From the IMG/VR virus record IMGVR_UViG_3300032516_000134, positions 1 to 29,060 of that record: DNA of 29,060 bases. The stretch is one strand, 5' to 3'. The position numbers were made by a program, and so were the translations under genes. Below the pieces are notes generated by a model that made no database searches, was not told where the DNA came from, and worked only from the letters and a program-made list of their open reading frames with translations. Of this stretch, positions 1 to 23,936 are shown piece after piece. This DNA comes from a virus. Position 1 is the first letter of the stretch, and the number at the start of each line of letters is the position of its first letter.

Positions 1-1055
1 GCTCATCAGTTGCTATAGGACACTTAGCTTCAACAGGAGCAGGAATCTCATCAGTTGCTATAGGACACTTAGCAACAGCACCAGTAAGCCTATCAGTTGC
101 TATAGGACAGTCAGCAACAGCAGGAAACTTATCAGTTGCTATAGGAGGCTCAGCATCAACAGGAATCTCATCAGTTGCTATAGGACAGTCAGCTTCAACA
201 GCAGGAAACCTATCAGTTTCTATAGGAAACTCAGCTTCAACAGGAACAGGAACCTCATCAGTTGCTATAGGAAACTCGAGTAGGGCTACACATGCGACCA
301 CGGCTACACTAGGATTTAATACAACCTCAACAATCAATAATCAAATATTGCTAGGGAATTCGAATGCCACCCCATTCGCCCACCGTCCCTTATCCGTCAT
401 ATCAGACGCAAGGGACAAAACCGACATAACCCCTTTAACCTACAACTCACTAGACTTTATAAACTCTATAGAGCCTAAACAATACCGACTTGACTTCCGC
501 AGTGACTACACAAGATGGGAAGAAATAACGGAAGCCGAATACAACAAACTAGATAAATACGAACAACATCACCGTATAAAGGATATACCGGTATACGAGC
601 TAAATAATAAAATAAAGTTTATTGACTATCCACTATTTAATCAAGATGATAGAATGAAAAGTAAAGATAAGTTTAAAACAATAATAAAAAGCGATGTGTT
701 GCAAAGTAGAGAAGAAGCAATATCGCTATTTGAAAAAACAAGAATTAACACAGAAGAAGAAACCACAGAAGAAAAAATAGGCACTATAAAGCTTTTGCGT
801 GTTCAACTTGAAAAAGATGGCAGCCGTACTAACAAACGTCTACACAATGGTTTTTTAGCACAGCAAGTAAAAGAGGTAGCCGATGATATGGGCTTCGACT
901 TTGTAGGCTTTAAAGACCACGCAGTTAATGGTGGTGATGATTTATATTCTATAAGTTACGAGGAATTTATTGCACCAATGATAGGGGCTATACAAGAGTT
1001 AACCAAACAAAATGAAAAAATGATGCAAATATTAGAAAAGAATAATTTAATTTAG
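1..1055 (+). CDS. Tail-fibre protein, 3' part (YadA-head-like repeats + S74 chaperone domain)
   Basis: The reading frame is open from base 3 and the true start lies upstream, so about 350 C-terminal residues are visible. Residues 1-90 are repeats of 13-15 residues built on SVAIGxxAxxxG, the pattern of the YadA/Hia head (Hep_Hag) left-handed beta-roll. After a short linker comes an intramolecular chaperone domain of the endosialidase type (Peptidase_S74). The self-cleavage motif SDARDK has Ser at about residue 134 (bases 402-404) with Lys five residues on. The second conserved motif, RLHNGFLAQ, has its His near residue 281. In this family the chaperone trimerises the fibre and then cuts itself off. 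About 90 residues of charged sequence separate the two motifs, more than in the minimal domain. A coiled coil ends the protein. The role is host recognition; the receptor is unknown. A TTG at 348 is inside the gene and is not its start. Confidence 0.9.
   Translation, partial: SSVAIGHLASTGAGISSVAIGHLATAPVSLSVAIGQSATAGNLSVAIGGSASTGISSVAIGQSASTAGNLSVSIGNSASTGTGTSSVAIGNSSRATHATTATLGFNTTSTINNQILLGNSNATPFAHRPLSVISDARDKTDITPLTYNSLDFINSIEPKQYRLDFRSDYTRWEEITEAEYNKLDKYEQHHRIKDIPVYELNNKIKFIDYPLFNQDDRMKSKDKFKTIIKSDVLQSREEAISLFEKTRINTEEETTEEKIGTIKLLRVQLEKDGSRTNKRLHNGFLAQQVKEVADDMGFDFVGFKDHAVNGGDDLYSISYEEFIAPMIGAIQELTKQNEKMMQILEKNNLI
6..272 (+). repeat. Seven imperfect tandem repeats encoding SVAIG units of the tail fibre
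   Basis: The 15-mer TCAGTTGCTATAGGA recurs at 6, 51, 93, 132, 171 and 258, with a one-base variant at 213. Spacing is 39-45 bp and always a multiple of 3, so the protein frame is kept. Near-identity at DNA level, including synonymous sites, suggests recent expansion or recombination between copies. The repeats encode the beta-roll head of the fibre. Confidence 0.9.
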
Positions 1056-3971: not shown

Positions 3972-4101
3972 AAAATAAATTAATTTAATTTAACAAAAAG
4001 TGTTGACATAGTTATAACTATGATATATAATAAGGTATAAAGTTAAGCAAAGGGCTTAGCAAAACAAAAAGGGGATAATTATTATGAAAAAATATGAAGA
4101 C
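3972..4101 (+). repeat. ~130-bp direct repeat, left copy
   Basis: This copy matches 8397-8525 with only a few differences: ATA versus TCA before the -10 box and a small change in the leader. It covers the promoter, the operator, the untranslated leader, the RBS and the first six codons (MKKYED) of the downstream gene. The two copies flank a 4.4-kb gene block. Confidence 0.95.
4003..4031 (+). promoter_or_regulatory. Consensus promoter with palindromic operator
   Basis: TTGACA (4003-4008), a 17-nt spacer and TATAAT (4026-4031) are a perfect sigma-A promoter. A perfect 16-bp palindrome, CATAGTTATAACTATG (4007-4022), fills the spacer and overlaps the -35, so a bound dimeric repressor would block RNA polymerase. 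The right-hand copy at 8429-8450 extends to a perfect 22-bp palindrome. Confidence 0.9.
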
Positions 4102-5209: not shown

Positions 5210-6443
5210 TCAAGAACAAGCGTTTATGAAGTTTCAGAGGTTAAAAGTTGGAGCTTTATTTATGCAAATGGGAACTGGCAAAACAAAGGTAGCGGTCGAC
5301 TTAATAAATTATAATAATGCCAGTATTGATTTAGCATTATTTGTTTGCCCTAATTCAGTTAAAAATAATTTGGACATTGAAATAAAAAAATGGGGTATTT
5401 TAGCGGAATATATAATAATATGTTATGAAAATATTTCAATGTCCGATAAAGGCTATTTGCAGCTATTAAAAAAATTAGAGGACAAGAAGATATTTATTGT
5501 AGCTGATGAAAGCATTTTTATTAAAAATGAAAAAACTAAAAGGTACAAAAGATTATTAGAATTAAGACATAAAAGTAATTATGCTTTAATTCTAAATGGG
5601 ACACCTATCGTTAAAAATGAATGGGACTTATATAATCAAATGCACTTTTTAAGTCCTAAAATTTTAAACATGGGAAGAGAAGAATTTCTTAATACTTTTT
5701 TCAAGCACGTTATATATAAAAAAGAGGGGCAAAAAGAAAGAGATTTTTATGTGTTTAGTAAAGTAAATGCTGATTATTTAAATAAGTTAATTCAACCTTA
5801 CGTTTTTGAGTCTAAATTAGATATAGACATAAAAGAAAAAACTTATTTTAAAAAAATATTATGTAGCGATGAAACTAATGCTACTTATGTAGATAAAAAA
5901 GAAGAACTTTTAAAAGCGTTAGCAAATTTTAATAAAGATGCATTTATTAAAAAATTAATAAAATTATGCTATATATCAGCTACAGATAAAAACAAGAATA
6001 TGGAAATTCAAAATTTTATAAAAAATAGAAAGGTTATTTGTTTTTGCAACTATATAAAAGAAATTAATCAGATTGCTAAAGATTTAGATTGCTATATTAT
6101 AAGCGGAAAAGTGAAAACAGAACAAAGAAATTCTATAATAGAAAGTTTTAGAAATAATAACAAACCTCTTTTAATAACTTTAGGAACTGGGTCTTATGGA
6201 TTAAATTTACAATTTTGTAACGAAATAATATTTTCCAGTCTATCTTTTGATTTTGGCAAAATAGAACAAGCAAAATATAGGATAAAAAGAATAGGTCAAC
6301 AAGAAGACATAAAATACACCTATTTTTTCAATGAATTAAAAATAAATGAATTGATGTACGACAATTTAAATAAAAAATCCAATTTAAGTAAATTGGTAGA
6401 GGAAAAACTACAGGCGGGTGAAAAATGGGAAAAAATTATTTAG
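5202..6443 (+). CDS. SNF2-like superfamily 2 helicase
   Basis: A 413-aa protein carrying SF2 motifs: Q-motif and Walker A region (residues 20-31, MQMGTGKTKVAV), a DExx box (VADESIFIKN, about residue 100), motif III-like LNGTPIVKNEWDLYNQ (about 132-147), motif V (TLGTGSYGLNLQ) and motif VI (QAKYRIKRIGQ) in the second RecA domain. The motif order and the QxxxRxxRIGQ form fit the SNF2 branch: ATP-driven translocation on duplex DNA. It is short for SNF2, with no extra domains. The stop overlaps the next gene's start by 19 bp, and the neighbours are IbrA- and IbrB-like, so the three probably act together. Confidence 0.88.
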   Translation: MNNQEQAFMKFQRLKVGALFMQMGTGKTKVAVDLINYNNASIDLALFVCPNSVKNNLDIEIKKWGILAEYIIICYENISMSDKGYLQLLKKLEDKKIFIVADESIFIKNEKTKRYKRLLELRHKSNYALILNGTPIVKNEWDLYNQMHFLSPKILNMGREEFLNTFFKHVIYKKEGQKERDFYVFSKVNADYLNKLIQPYVFESKLDIDIKEKTYFKKILCSDETNATYVDKKEELLKALANFNKDAFIKKLIKLCYISATDKNKNMEIQNFIKNRKVICFCNYIKEINQIAKDLDCYIISGKVKTEQRNSIIESFRNNNKPLLITLGTGSYGLNLQFCNEIIFSSLSFDFGKIEQAKYRIKRIGQQEDIKYTYFFNELKINELMYDNLNKKSNLSKLVEEKLQAGEKWEKII

Positions 6444-7711
6444 ATTTAAATGTATACGACATGGCTAAAAAGCGTATACAGTATGTCTTTGATGAGTTTG
6501 AAGCAGAAGAAATATGGTTAAGTTTTAGCGGTGGAAAAGATAGTGCAGTTATATATTATCTTGCTAAACAAGAAGCTTTAACAAGAGGTATTAAATATAT
6601 CAACTTGCTAATAATTGATTTAGAGGGTCACTACAAATTACATGCAGATTTTTTAGATGAAATTATAAATGATGAAGATATAGAAGTTAGAGGTTATCAT
6701 ATTTGCTTACCCTTTAATTTAAGCAACGCATCTTCTGTTTATATGCCTAAATGGTTATGTTGGGATTTAAACGAAAAAGGAAAATGGATTAGAGAAATGC
6801 CTAATAATAAAATAGTTATAAATGAAGAAAATAACCCTTTTGGAGATTACTTTAGGCAAGGTATGGAGTTTGAAGAGTTTATAATACAGTTCCCTAAATT
6901 TTTAATAGAGCAAAAAGGATTAAAAAAAGTAGCACAATTTATAGGTATACGAACGCAAGAGAGCTACAACAGATACTTAAAGATGAAAGTTAAACAAAAC
7001 AGGGAATTTTATAAAGATAACCAATATATTTTAAAGCAAAAAACAACTGGTTATGAAACGTTTAGCGCACACCCTATTTACGATTGGCTGACAGAAGATG
7101 TCTGGAAATATTTACACAACAAGCCGTACAATAAAGTTTATGATTTAATGTATTTATCAGGCATGCCATTAAAACATATGAGGATATGCCAACCTTTTGG
7201 GGAAGAACAAAGGGATAATATAGATTTGTTTGCAAAAATAGAACCAGAAACTTGGGATAAAATGAACGCTAGAGTTTATGGGGCTAATTTTGCAAAAATA
7301 TACGGCGGTAAAAATGTATTAAAAGGCAGGATAACAACGCCAGACGGTGTAACATGGGAACAGTGGACTAGATTAATATTAAATACTATGCCACCTTTTT
7401 TAAGGGAGCATTATATAAGACGTATCAATGTATTTCTAAGGTGGTGGAGAAAGGAGATATATAAAGATATTGAGCACGTATATGCAAATAAATATGCAGA
7501 AAATGAGATGTTTGATAAGGACGGCTTATACATCGTAGATATTTACGATGAGCATATAGACGACGTTAATAAAATGCAACCTTCATGGCGTCGCATATGC
7601 AAAGTGTTATTAAAGGGCGACTTTCTATGTAAAAATCTAACCTTTTCAGCCAATAAAAAAGAATACGAAAAATTAGAGGAGCTAAAAACAAAATGGGAAA
7701 ACATAATATAA
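6425..7711 (+). CDS. IbrA-like PAPS-reductase-family protein (DUF3440 type)
   Basis: A 428-aa protein of the PP-loop ATPase superfamily. The adenylation loop SGGKDS is at residues 35-40, followed by a Rossmann-like region (LLIIDLEGHY). Further motifs are IGIRTQESYNRYL and HPIYDWLTEDVWKYL, typical of phosphoadenosine-phosphosulfate reductase relatives. The C-terminal half fits the DUF3440 extension found in E. coli IbrA. The substrate is unknown; the fold activates by adenylation. In E. coli, IbrA and the ParB-like IbrB are co-activators of prophage (eib) gene expression. The gene overlaps both neighbours (19 bp each), strong evidence of a coupled complex or pathway. Confidence 0.88.
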   Translation: MGKNYLDLNVYDMAKKRIQYVFDEFEAEEIWLSFSGGKDSAVIYYLAKQEALTRGIKYINLLIIDLEGHYKLHADFLDEIINDEDIEVRGYHICLPFNLSNASSVYMPKWLCWDLNEKGKWIREMPNNKIVINEENNPFGDYFRQGMEFEEFIIQFPKFLIEQKGLKKVAQFIGIRTQESYNRYLKMKVKQNREFYKDNQYILKQKTTGYETFSAHPIYDWLTEDVWKYLHNKPYNKVYDLMYLSGMPLKHMRICQPFGEEQRDNIDLFAKIEPETWDKMNARVYGANFAKIYGGKNVLKGRITTPDGVTWEQWTRLILNTMPPFLREHYIRRINVFLRWWRKEIYKDIEHVYANKYAENEMFDKDGLYIVDIYDEHIDDVNKMQPSWRRICKVLLKGDFLCKNLTFSANKKEYEKLEELKTKWENII

Positions 7712-8220: not shown

Positions 8221-8403
8221 ATGAAAGAGTTTAATCAGTTAAAATATATATCAGACTATCAAAAAGAGTTTACAAAAAGATACACATTTACACTAAACAC
8301 AAAGCACGACCAAGATTTAATTAACGACCTTGCCAACACTACAGAGCCAATGGCTACTAGAGTTAAAAGGCTTTTAAGGGAAGATAAAATAAAAATAAAA
8401 TAA
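8221..8403 (+). CDS. Small ribbon-helix-helix-like protein, candidate repressor of the flanking promoters
   Basis: A 60-aa protein. A conserved YQKEFTKRY start precedes a strand-like TFTLNTKHD segment and two predicted helices (DLINDLANT, ATRVKRLLRED), which fits a ribbon-helix-helix fold. The gene at 14892 has the same plan (NSEFIKVY ... NEYVRGLIRSD). Each lies directly upstream of a consensus promoter with a palindromic operator, so autoregulation is a reasonable inference. RBS is the strong GAAAGGAGG. Confidence 0.6.
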   Translation: MKEFNQLKYISDYQKEFTKRYTFTLNTKHDQDLINDLANTTEPMATRVKRLLREDKIKIK

Positions 8404-8525
8404 ATTAATTTAATTTAACAAAAAGTGTTGACATAGTTATAACTATGTCATATAATAAGGTATAAAGTTAATTAAGGGCTTAGCAAAACAAAAAGGGGAT
8501 AATTATTATGAAAAAATATGAAGAC
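8397..8525 (+). repeat. ~130-bp direct repeat, right copy
   Basis: Second copy of 3972-4101. It starts at the end of the RHH-like gene and runs through promoter, operator, leader and the first six codons of the 8508 gene. Recombination between the copies would delete the whole helicase-IbrA-IbrB block and leave one promoter intact. Confidence 0.95.
8428..8456 (+). promoter_or_regulatory. Consensus promoter with 22-bp perfect palindromic operator
   Basis: TTGACA (8428-8433) and TATAAT (8451-8456) are separated by 17 nt. Bases 8429-8450 form a perfect 22-bp palindrome (half-site TGACATAGTTA) reaching from within the -35 box to the -10 box. This is the more complete of two related operators and probably the stronger repressor site. 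Confidence 0.9.
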
Positions 8526-8789
8526 AAAACAGAATTTAAAAAGATGTTAAGAGAGGGCGGTTATGAAACATGGGTTGTAGTTTATAAAAACGGAACTTGG
8601 GAAGCAACAGAATATTTTGAACACATTTTCACTTTAGAAGATTGCAATAGAGATAGAGTTTACGAAAACAAACTCAAAGAAAACCCAGAAGTTATAGAAG
8701 TTTATAATATGTGGGAAACTGGAGAAAGTTTTACGAGAACTAACAATATAGTTAAAGCGCTAGAGTTAAAAATTAACAAGGTGGCTTAA
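8508..8789 (+). CDS. Hypothetical protein under the right-hand operator promoter
   Basis: A 93-aa acidic soluble protein (KNGTWEATEYFEHIFTLEDC in the middle part), with no membrane segment and no recognised domain. The RBS AAGGGG and the leader are shared with the 4084 gene. It is the first gene of the operon that carries the structured leaders and the Spo0E-like gene. Confidence 0.7.
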   Translation: MKKYEDKTEFKKMLREGGYETWVVVYKNGTWEATEYFEHIFTLEDCNRDRVYENKLKENPEVIEVYNMWETGESFTRTNNIVKALELKINKVA

Positions 8790-8801
8790 AACAAAGTTGA
8801 A

Positions 8802-8866
8802 ACGGCTTTTTAGCCGTATTAGGGCAATAGGCAACCCTAACTTATGATACAGCCTACAGAAGGGTG
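8802..8866 (+). promoter_or_regulatory. Structured leader with predicted pseudoknot
   Basis: Hairpin 1 is ACGGCT (8802-8807) with AGCCGT (8812-8817). Hairpin 2 is TTAGGG (8819-8824) with CCCTAA (8835-8840). The hairpin-2 loop holds UAGGC (8828-8832), complementary to GCCUA (8852-8856), which would form an H-type pseudoknot. ACCCU (8834-8838) can instead pair with AGGGU (8861-8865) in the ribosome-binding site of the next gene. The alternatives look like a translational switch, but I do not recognise a known riboswitch class. Confidence 0.5.
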
Positions 8867-8874
8867 AGAGATAG

Positions 8875-9072
8875 ATGGGTGAAAGCGATATAATAGGCAC
8901 AGTTGGAGCGACAGGCTACAATCATAAATATATGAACCTAAGCCCACAAAGTGCATTAATGAAAAAGATTAAAAAGTTGGGCTATACTAAAGAAGATATA
9001 AATATAAAGATAAAAATAGATTGTATAGAGGGTAGTAACTACAGACATATATATACTATATACAAAATATAA
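8875..9072 (+). CDS. Hypothetical protein between two structured RNAs
   Basis: A 65-aa basic protein (MGESDIIGTVGATGYNHKYM ... YTKEDINIKIKID). No recognised domain. AGGGTGAGAG serves as RBS. Its stop codon directly abuts the 5' strand of hammerhead stem I, so ribozyme cleavage would leave this message with a structured 3' end. Confidence 0.6.
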   Translation: MGESDIIGTVGATGYNHKYMNLSPQSALMKKIKKLGYTKEDINIKIKIDCIEGSNYRHIYTIYKI

Positions 9073-9126
9073 ATAGCCTGACGAGTCCAAAAAGGACGAA
9101 ACAAGGGGGTCGCCCCTTGTCGCTAT
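9073..9126 (+). ncRNA. Hammerhead ribozyme (type I)
   Basis: All core nucleotides are present in order. Stem I 5' strand is ATAGC (9073-9077). CTGACGA (9078-9084) is the CUGANGA core. Stem II is GTCC/GGAC (9085-9088, 9094-9097) with an A5 loop. GAA (9098-9100) follows. Stem III is ACAAGGGG/CCCCTTGT (9101-9108, 9113-9120) with loop GTCG, giving the A15.1-U16.1 pair. C at 9121 is position 17, and cleavage is predicted after it. Stem I closes with GCTAT (9122-9126). Hammerheads are known in bacterial and phage genomes. Stem I is only 5 bp, and no loop-loop contact is obvious, so the in-cell rate is uncertain. Confidence 0.9.
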
Positions 9127-9144
9127 CGAAAGGAGGTGAATAGC
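9122..9144 (+). promoter_or_regulatory. Alternative hairpin around the RBS of the Spo0E-like gene
   Basis: GCTAT (9122-9126), the 3' strand of hammerhead stem I, is also complementary to a second ATAGC at 9140-9144, just before the ATG at 9145. The 13-nt loop between them contains the ribosome-binding site AAAGGAGGTGA. Pairing is exclusive with ribozyme stem I, so cleavage and release of the 5' fragment would favour this hairpin. Confidence 0.5.
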
Positions 9145-9297
9145 ATGGATTTAGAAGAAAAAAGAGAAGAATTAAATAAAATAGCGGAAATAAGCCTTAT
9201 CTTAAAAGATTTAACAGTTAAAATCGAGAAATTACAATTAAATAAATCACAAGAACTTGACATTTTAATTGTAGAACAACAAAAAAAGGGGAACTAA
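9145..9297 (+). CDS. Spo0E-like aspartyl-phosphate phosphatase
   Basis: A 50-aa two-helix protein. The first helix reads EEKREELNKIAE. The second carries KSQELDILIVEQQ at residues 34-46, including the family signature SQELD and the following LIV(E)xQ. Spo0E-family proteins are of this size and dephosphorylate Spo0A~P, delaying entry into sporulation. The loop between the helices differs from typical members (KDLTVKIEKLQ), so exact specificity is uncertain. RBS AAAGGAGGTGA is near perfect, and the gene lies 23 nt downstream of the predicted hammerhead cut site. It implies a spore-forming host, with the phage adjusting the sporulation decision. Confidence 0.72.
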   Translation: MDLEEKREELNKIAEISLILKDLTVKIEKLQLNKSQELDILIVEQQKKGN

Positions 9298-9302
9298 AAA
9301 AG

Positions 9303-9701
9303 ATGAAAAATGAATTTGAACAAATCGTAACAAATTGTCCCAAATGTGGGTCAGATAACATTGAATACCAACTAACAGCAGATAACTTAACTGGTAGTGA
9401 CTTAAGTAAAAAAGCTTTAGGGTTCGCAATCTTTGGTTGGTTGTCATTTGCAAAACCACCAAGTAATGATGATAAAAGCACGACTTATTTATTTTGCAAG
9501 AAGTGTGGTTACAAGCAAAACAAAACACTGCAAAAGAAAAAAGCTGCTGACCAACGAATGGTTAAAAGATGGGTTATAGGAATGGCTATTTTTGCCCTCA
9601 CAATGATTGTCGTAGCTAACTATCCACTACACCCATCTGAAATTTTTTTTATAGCAATTATAATAATTTCTATAATTACAGTAAAAATTAGAAAAAAATA
9701 A
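9303..9701 (+). CDS. Zinc-ribbon membrane protein
   Basis: A 132-aa protein. CPKCGSDN (residues 12-19) and FCKKCGYKQ (residues 63-71) form a four-cysteine zinc ribbon split by about 45 residues. Two hydrophobic helices follow (about residues 91-105 and 112-127). The lysines after the last helix are encoded by the start of the AAAAAAAT repeat. Function unknown; it is co-transcribed with the Spo0E-like gene and ends the operon before a terminator. Confidence 0.75.
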   Translation: MKNEFEQIVTNCPKCGSDNIEYQLTADNLTGSDLSKKALGFAIFGWLSFAKPPSNDDKSTTYLFCKKCGYKQNKTLQKKKAADQRMVKRWVIGMAIFALTMIVVANYPLHPSEIFFIAIIIISIITVKIRKK

Positions 9702-9747
9702 AAAAATAAAAAAATAAAAAAATAAAAAAATAAAAAAATAAAAAAAT
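9692..9747 (+). repeat. 8-bp tandem repeat AAAAAAAT x7
   Basis: Seven perfect copies of AAAAAAAT, followed by AAAAAAG. The array overlaps the last codons of the zinc-ribbon membrane protein; every unit contains a TAA. Copy number is expected to vary by slippage, changing the 3' end of the gene and the distance to the terminator. Confidence 0.95.
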
Positions 9748-9763
9748 AAAAAAGTAATATTTT

Positions 9764-9793
9764 TAACCCCTATTAATTTAGGGGTTATTTTTT
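9764..9793 (+). terminator. Intrinsic terminator
   Basis: TAACCCC (9764-9770) pairs with GGGGTTA (9781-9787) around a 10-nt loop, and a T-run (TTTTTT) follows. It ends the ribozyme/Spo0E operon. Confidence 0.85.
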
Positions 9794-17860: not shown

Positions 17861-17895
17861 AACTGATATTTTTAAAGAATAAGGGGGTGTTTAAA

Positions 17896-18741
17896 ATAGA
17901 TAATCCAAATTATTACGCAGTAATACCTGCAAACGTAAGATACTCTAAGGCAATTTCTCCACAAGAAAAATTGCTATATGCTGAAATAAGTTCCTTATCT
18001 AATGCAAAGGGGTACTGTTGGGCTACAAATGAATATTTTTCAGAGCTTTACGATTTAAGTAAAAGAACGGTCTCTAGACAAATATCTAACTTAGAAAAAA
18101 AAGGGTTTTTAGTTATTAAGATGATATATAAGGCTAACTCTAAACAAGTTGAATCAAGGAAAATTTATATAGTTCAAAATACAGAACAAGTGCACCAAAA
18201 TAGCGTTAAAAACCTAGTAGAAGAAAATAAAAATATAGAAGAAAACACCCATACCCCTATAGACAAAAATGTCTATACCCCTATAGACAAAAATGTCTAT
18301 ACCTATAGACAAAAATGTCTATACCCTATGGACAAAAATGTCTATGATAATAATAAAGATTTAATATTAAATAATAATAAAGATAAAAAGATATATAGCT
18401 CGGCAGAGCCAAACCTTGTGTATCAAATAGTCGGACACTTAAATTTAATGGCTGGAACAAATTACAAACCAAGTAGCAAGTCTACTCAAAACAAAATCAA
18501 TGCACGATTGAACGAGGGACACAGTCTCGACGACTTTATAGTTGTTATTGATAAAAAATGTCATGACTGGCTTGATAGTGACAAAGAAATGTATTTGAGA
18601 CCAGAGACCCTATTTGGCAATAAATTTGAGGGATACGTAAACCAAAAAATTATTAAACCCTTAACAAAAAATGAAGAAGCTATTAAACGTATAGCGGAGG
18701 TTAGTATAGAGCAGGGAAGGGGTTTGTTAGATGGTTTTTAG
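17896..18741 (+). CDS. Replication initiator (HTH + phage-2220-type C-terminal domain), apparent ATA start
   Basis: A 281-aa protein. An N-terminal winged HTH (residues 20-85: PQEKLLYAEISSLSNAKGYC, LYDLSKRTVSRQISNLEKKG) and a C-terminal domain (YKPSSKSTQNKINARLNEGH, WLDSDKEMYLRPETLFG, KFEGYVN) match phage replication organisers. The start is unusual. AAGGGGG (17881-17887) sits 8 nt before ATA, and DNPNYYAVIPANVRYSK follows as in family N-termini that begin MDNPNYY. The in-frame GTG at 17887 lies inside the RBS. Residues 121-150 are encoded by the iteron cluster. The stop overlaps the next gene. Confidence 0.85.
   Translation: MDNPNYYAVIPANVRYSKAISPQEKLLYAEISSLSNAKGYCWATNEYFSELYDLSKRTVSRQISNLEKKGFLVIKMIYKANSKQVESRKIYIVQNTEQVHQNSVKNLVEENKNIEENTHTPIDKNVYTPIDKNVYTYRQKCLYPMDKNVYDNNKDLILNNNKDKKIYSSAEPNLVYQIVGHLNLMAGTNYKPSSKSTQNKINARLNEGHSLDDFIVVIDKKCHDWLDSDKEMYLRPETLFGNKFEGYVNQKIIKPLTKNEEAIKRIAEVSIEQGRGLLDGF
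18259..18345 (+). repeat. Four iterons (18-bp inverted repeats): probable replication origin
   Basis: ATAGACAAAAATGTCTAT occurs at 18259, 18283 and 18305 and, with one change (ATGGAC), at 18328. Spacings are 24, 22 and 23 bp. Each copy is an inverted repeat with an AAAAAT centre. Copies 1, 2 and 4 encode IDKNVY or MDKNVY, but copy 3 is read in another frame (YRQKCLY), so the DNA, not the protein, is conserved. Placement inside the initiator gene is typical of phage origins. Confidence 0.85.
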
Positions 18742-23825: not shown

Positions 23826-23936
23826 CAATTGTCGTTTTTAGGTTTTTAAGACGTAAAACGAAAAAATCAAAACAATTCGAGTGATGCGACCACGTATAAA
23901 AGCATAGAATATTTTAAATAGGAAAAGGGGTATTTA

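Follow-up and report, generated by a model that had tools for sequence, protein, structure and literature searches.

A 50-aa gene of a virus was found to encode a putative divergent Spo0E-like protein and to lie directly behind a well-formed hammerhead ribozyme, which should cut its message. Spo0E is a protein that restrains bacteria from spore formation, and its family consists of aspartyl-phosphate phosphatases. The stretch of DNA analysed, hereafter the window, is a 29,060-base IMG/VR virus record, and the features of the locus are summarized in Table 1. What the letters themselves show is the open reading frame with its Spo0E-type motifs, the ribozyme with intact core and three stems, a promoter-like palindrome and a terminator. 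The whole locus is interpreted, with the chances standing about even, as a phage unit (8428-9787) that is split by a ribozyme and makes a divergent Spo0E-like protein, which would lower the activity of a receiver domain.

Table 1. Positions of the predicted features of the unit in the window
Feature	Positions	Strand	Basis or remark
Sigma-A-type promoter, TTGACA-17-TATAAT, 12/12	8428-8456	+	Overlaps the perfect palindrome 8429-8450
Palindrome TGACATAGTTA/TAACTATGTCA	8429-8450	+	Likely repressor operator
93-aa ORF, no family	8508-8789	+	First gene of the unit
65-aa ORF, no family	8875-9072	+	Stop codon 9070-9072 adjoins the ribozyme
Type I hammerhead ribozyme	9073-9126	+	Rfam RF00163, exact-core pattern, whole-motif descriptor
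Leader remaining post-cleavage	9122-9144	+	Sequence, folding; contains Shine-Dalgarno 9130-9138
50-aa Spo0E-like protein	9145-9297	+	Pfam, own profiles, alignment, AlphaFold2
132-aa protein	9303-9701	+	5 bases downstream of the Spo0E-like gene
Intrinsic terminator	9764-9787	+	Closes the unit

The open reading frame starts with ATG at 9145 behind a strong Shine-Dalgarno sequence (AAGGAGGTG) and translates as MDLEEKREELNKIAEISLILKDLTVKIEKLQLNKSQELDILIVEQQKKGN. The sequence-only reading had described a Spo0E-like phosphatase here, and its coordinates, strand, length of 50 aa and SQELD motif were all exact when compared with the sequence and the translation. The motif occupies residues 35-39 and supplies the SxxxD / SQELD signature of the family as defined in PMC11115286; the length falls inside the range of 40-100 aa used for the family, of which the C. 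difficile Spo0E has 53 aa (PMC11115286). The HMM search that the same reading had proposed matched Pfam PF09388 (SpoOE-like) with a score of 21.7 bits (E 2e-4), a little under the gathering score (curated cut-off) of 23 bits. PHROGs and NCBIfam searches with the protein gave no match, and in Pfam a coiled-coil family, ERM_C, was matched weakly (E 0.036).

Since composition can give a score to short, charged, helical proteins, our own Spo0E profiles and controls were built. The profiles were drawn from Bacillales genomes and clostridial-class genomes, the combined one holding 55 Spo0E sequences from both; the controls were 20,000 residue shuffles of the 50-aa protein, and about 9,300 small ORFs from viral contigs served as decoys. 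The protein scored 22.4 bits with the combined profile (shuffle maximum 16.4, decoy maximum 12.2) and 21.9 bits with the Bacillales profile (16.0 and 7.2), which gives a clear separation from the shuffles with two of the three profiles. The score with the clostridial profile was 17.9 bits, the margin over the shuffle maximum of 17.6 being nil or narrow (decoy maximum 9.4). None of the remaining ORFs of the window exceeded 1.4 bits against the Bacillales profile. The two conserved segments, helix-1 KREELNKI and helix-2 SQELDILIVE, were matched in their proper order, and an alignment of 15 sequences showed no variation at the R, S, L and D positions. KREELNKI also occurs in one clostridial sequence (L354), and two others (L331, L332) have the SQELDxLIV(E) segment, while the N and Y usual after SQELD are replaced in the 50-aa protein. 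By sequence, its likeness to Spo0E exceeds chance and it is a divergent Spo0E-like protein with a putative phosphatase function. The family likeness that had been claimed is thus upheld by two of the three profiles, in which the protein clearly beats shuffles and decoys, but not at the curated level of Pfam.

The fold of the protein was predicted with AlphaFold2 from the single sequence, without alignment. The model showed one continuous helix over residues 3-49 (pLDDT 96.7), and Foldseek found no PDB fold match for it. The canonical Spo0E from a Peribacillus prophage region (L242) was folded identically as a control and gave two helices, 3-28 and 33-55 (pLDDT 89), its first Foldseek match being 2c0s, the aspartyl-phosphate phosphatase of B. 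anthracis (weak E-value, 56 residues only). The two antiparallel helices and loop of the Spo0E family are absent from the model of the 50-aa protein. The spacing from the helix-1 Arg to the signature Ser is 28 residues, compared to 20-23 in 47 of the 53 relatives, 26 and 27 in one each, and four in which it was not measurable. The relatives have a linker shorter by about 6 residues, and 43/53 of them have a Gly or Pro within the 16 residues before the Ser, where the 50-aa protein has none. The helix pair ascribed to the protein by the sequence-only reading is therefore not supported, since a single helix is predicted while the control Spo0E gives two helices and 2c0s. The Ser and Asp of SxxxD are present, but the hairpin that would present them is not predicted by the model. 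The extra 6-7 residues could add one turn to each arm of a hairpin, and for this reason the AlphaFold2 model does not settle the choice between hairpin and single helix.

These structural data bear on a possible, though doubtful, explanation, namely that this is a short phage protein of the coiled-coil type, unrelated to Spo0A, with an SQELD that arose by chance or convergence, and that the ribozyme is generic phage mRNA processing. The single 47-residue helix with its high pLDDT, a heptad run (I13 I16 L20 L23 I27 L30), the ERM_C match, the Spo0E cut-off that is not reached and the failure of the clostridial-only profile to separate the protein from its shuffles are in accordance with it. It is opposed by the two other profiles, which clearly separate the protein from 20,000 shuffles of the same composition, and by the helix-1 and helix-2 motifs, which both match in the right order.

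The relatives of the 50-aa ORF were searched in IMG/VR and in GTDB genome contigs, and those of the neighbour proteins (65, 93 and 132 aa) in IMG/VR; only low-complexity matches were obtained, and phage and plasmid records held no DNA relatives of the locus. The terminase, portal and capsid were nearest to Bacillota phages or prophages (Shouchella, Aneurinibacillus, Brevibacillus, Psychrobacillus) at 35-56% identity. By these structural genes, the host is probably a member of the Bacillota. Between the portal gene and the next ORF, at 23841-23906 (+), an Rfam GP20-b RNA, a known cis-regulatory candidate, was also observed (42.1 bits, over gathering). In the favoured interpretation the protein would bind the receiver domain of a response regulator, most likely Spo0A or a relative, via its SQELD helix and lower its activity. 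It is rather unlikely that it is instead a Spo0E-like adaptor on another receiver domain, or a block of Spo0A without dephosphorylation, that controls a competence, motility or stress switch in a possibly non-sporulating host. Spo0E-like proteins do occur in non-sporulating species also, and several regulators are predicted contacts of the C. difficile protein (PMC11115286), but no direct evidence points to any particular target.

The promoter and terminator bound a four-gene unit, which the ribozyme splits into the 93-aa and 65-aa genes on one side and the Spo0E-like and zinc-ribbon-like genes on the other. The 132-aa protein has a zinc-ribbon-like N-terminal part (CxxC ... CxxC; zinc-ribbon matches sub-threshold) and hydrophobic stretches near its C-terminus. 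Between its ORF and the terminator, at 9699-9760, about seven head-to-tail copies of TAAAAAAA were seen, an array whose length may vary; repeats of about 40 bases (CTCATCAGTTGCTATAGGA...) also occupy the left end of the window (2-333), probably encoding a repetitive tail or spike protein. Promoter, palindrome, leader and first codons form a block of about 130 bases at 8397-8525, of which a near-identical copy lies at 3972-4101, with the palindrome/operator copy at 4003; the duplicated blocks carry the first codons of ORFs 4084 and 8508. The copy precedes an operon with SNF2-type helicase, DUF3440/PAPS-reductase-like and ParB-like genes, and because the promoter/operator block is near-identical, both operons should share one regulator. 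The DUF3440/PAPS-reductase-like gene followed by a ParB-N gene (6425-7711) showed 69% identity to genes in two phage contigs (L122 and L123), which also retain the ParB-like neighbour. Further along the window, a replication-initiator-like gene (17887-18741) contains four copies of CCTATAGACAAAAATGTCTATACC, 22-24 bases apart (18256-18349), which are a possible in-gene replication origin.

The hammerhead adjoining the Spo0E-like gene had been missed by the sequence-only reading. Its layout is ATAGC-CTGACGA-GTCC-AAAAA-GGAC-GAAA-CAAGGGG-GTCG-CCCCTTG-TC-GCTAT, with 5 pairs in stem I (ATAGC/GCTAT), which is open, 4 pairs in stem II (GTCC-AAAAA-GGAC), 8 pairs in stem III and zero mispairs beside the core. 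The core CUGANGA ... GAAA ... UH is intact and all the positions demanded by the published filter are present. Upstream the ribozyme adjoins the stop codon of the 65-aa ORF and downstream it is followed by the Shine-Dalgarno; self-cleavage is predicted between 9121 and 9122, a little ahead of the Shine-Dalgarno and 23 bases before the ATG. Rfam RF00163 (Hammerhead_1) gave 26.0 bits (E 2.3e-4; 4,227 families, 301 bases searched, relaxed threshold). A default Rfam scan is silent on the site because this score is below the gathering score of 34 bits, and the ribozyme was detected only with the relaxed threshold plus the pattern. The exact-core pattern occurred once in the window and gave 0 matches in 100 shuffles. 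The whole-motif descriptor had the site as its sole match in the window; with stem limits looser than the site shows, it gave any match in 4/300 random windows (one strand each). No tertiary contact between stem I and stem II was identified in the hammerhead.

A scan of the collection with the core pattern gave at least 120 viral stretches; among the matches listed, 91 dereplicated sites, including that of the window, close a type I fold. The distance from cut to start had a median of 31 bases over 45 phage sites among the matches listed (those with a Shine-Dalgarno and start within 150 bases), and the 23 bases of the window are near this median, so the position of the ribozyme is typical of phage hammerheads. 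Perreault et al. 2011 (PMC3088659) described this placement, with phage hammerheads that flank genes and cut in vitro. It is very unlikely that the ribozyme at 9073-9126 is a relic or inactive and irrelevant to the gene behind it, as might be argued from the score under Rfam gathering, the lack of an evident tertiary contact and energy models that disfavour stem I in long transcripts, though unable to represent the core, for all the filter-required core positions are intact, the three stems pair without mismatch beside the core and the site has the usual place between stop codon and Shine-Dalgarno.

In the favoured mechanism, 8428-9787 would be transcribed as one phage unit from a strong promoter that is controlled by the palindromic operator. 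The hammerhead would cut the RNA in the cell and so divide it into a part with the first two genes and a bicistronic message, which would start 23 bases before the start codon and encode the divergent Spo0E-like protein and a zinc-ribbon/membrane-like protein. How much of the Spo0E-like protein is made, or when, may be set by the cut through either of two routes: the ribosome-binding site would be freed, or the 5'-hydroxyl end would be open to RNase J1 as for glmS. The folding calculations placed the Shine-Dalgarno about half paired before the cut and about 90% unpaired after it; this result on its access is weak because the energy models leave out the hammerhead core. The 5'-OH product of glmS is degraded by RNase J1 in Bacillota (PMC3328962, PMC11780869), and degradation of the 5'-OH message is for this reason as possible as the freeing of the ribosome-binding site. 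The leader could also form a 5-pair hairpin, GCTAT/ATAGC (9122-9126/9140-9144), with the Shine-Dalgarno in its loop. As a general switch the post-cleavage hairpin was rejected, at least 5 pairs being observed in 4 cases compared to 5.9 expected from shuffles over the 91 phage sites among the matches listed. Other phage hammerheads show no enrichment of such hairpins, and that of the window may therefore be a coincidence.

The spo0E genes of phages are known from Brevibacillus phages and beside phage quorum-sensing genes (PMC4909266, PMC10075063), and a Geobacillus phage has one by annotation. In 30 related phage records, found via terminase or DUF3440, PF09388 gave no match over the cut-off. 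Two Bacillales prophage regions, L242 (5548-5718, -) and L257, carry canonical Spo0E genes less than 10 kb from related terminases, on the other strand. A single-protein scan of viral records revealed four phage Spo0E genes, none with a hammerhead, and no Spo0E was found in 48 of the hammerhead-bearing viral records. A hammerhead-like core was found within 400 bases upstream in 0/8 other phage or prophage Spo0E genes (from two Geobacillus phages, the two prophage regions and four IMG/VR contigs), and within 500 bases upstream in none of 30 host-genome Spo0E copies. No paper that names both hammerhead and Spo0E turned up in a full-text literature search. Spo0E genes are known from phages, and hammerheads are common in them; the combination of the two appears new as far as searched, at one locus without relatives.

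If the ribozyme acts on the message, control of a host-takeover gene would be a natural role for phage hammerheads, the purpose of which is still unclear. If true, the arrangement joins self-cleaving RNA with phage interference in sporulation, topics unlinked in the searchable papers, and the short RNA and the 50-aa protein are both easily testable. It is improbable that the phage puts an inhibitor of the sporulation switch under a self-cleaving ribozyme that sets its timing or amount, in an operon co-regulated with the second promoter copy, and that this inhibitor is a Spo0E variant working as a continuous helix and not as a hairpin.

The 50-aa protein shares its size, the helix-1 R and SQELD with its Asp with the Spo0E family (PF09388; B. 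subtilis Spo0E, B. anthracis 2c0s, C. difficile Spo0E), and its LI-V-E segment after SQELD is as in clostridial members. It differs from the family in the longer linker without Gly/Pro, the lost N/Y after SQELD, the predicted single helix and the score under the curated cut-off. Like the phage-borne spo0E genes (Brevibacillus SecTim467 gp70, Geobacillus PK2.1 gp47, TP-84 and the Peribacillus asahii prophage L242), it is a small Spo0E-like gene of a Bacillota phage; unlike at this locus, none of the eight checked genes is preceded by a hammerhead within 400 bases. The ribozyme shares core, topology and position just before the ribosome-binding site with the phage type I hammerheads presented in excerpts of PMC3088659, whereas the downstream genes named in those excerpts differ, none being Spo0E-like, and Rfam's model has a shorter stem III. 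It is of another class than the glmS ribozyme of Bacillota and no ligand control is suggested for it, but both are self-cleaving RNAs in a 5' leader that leave a 5'-OH mRNA.
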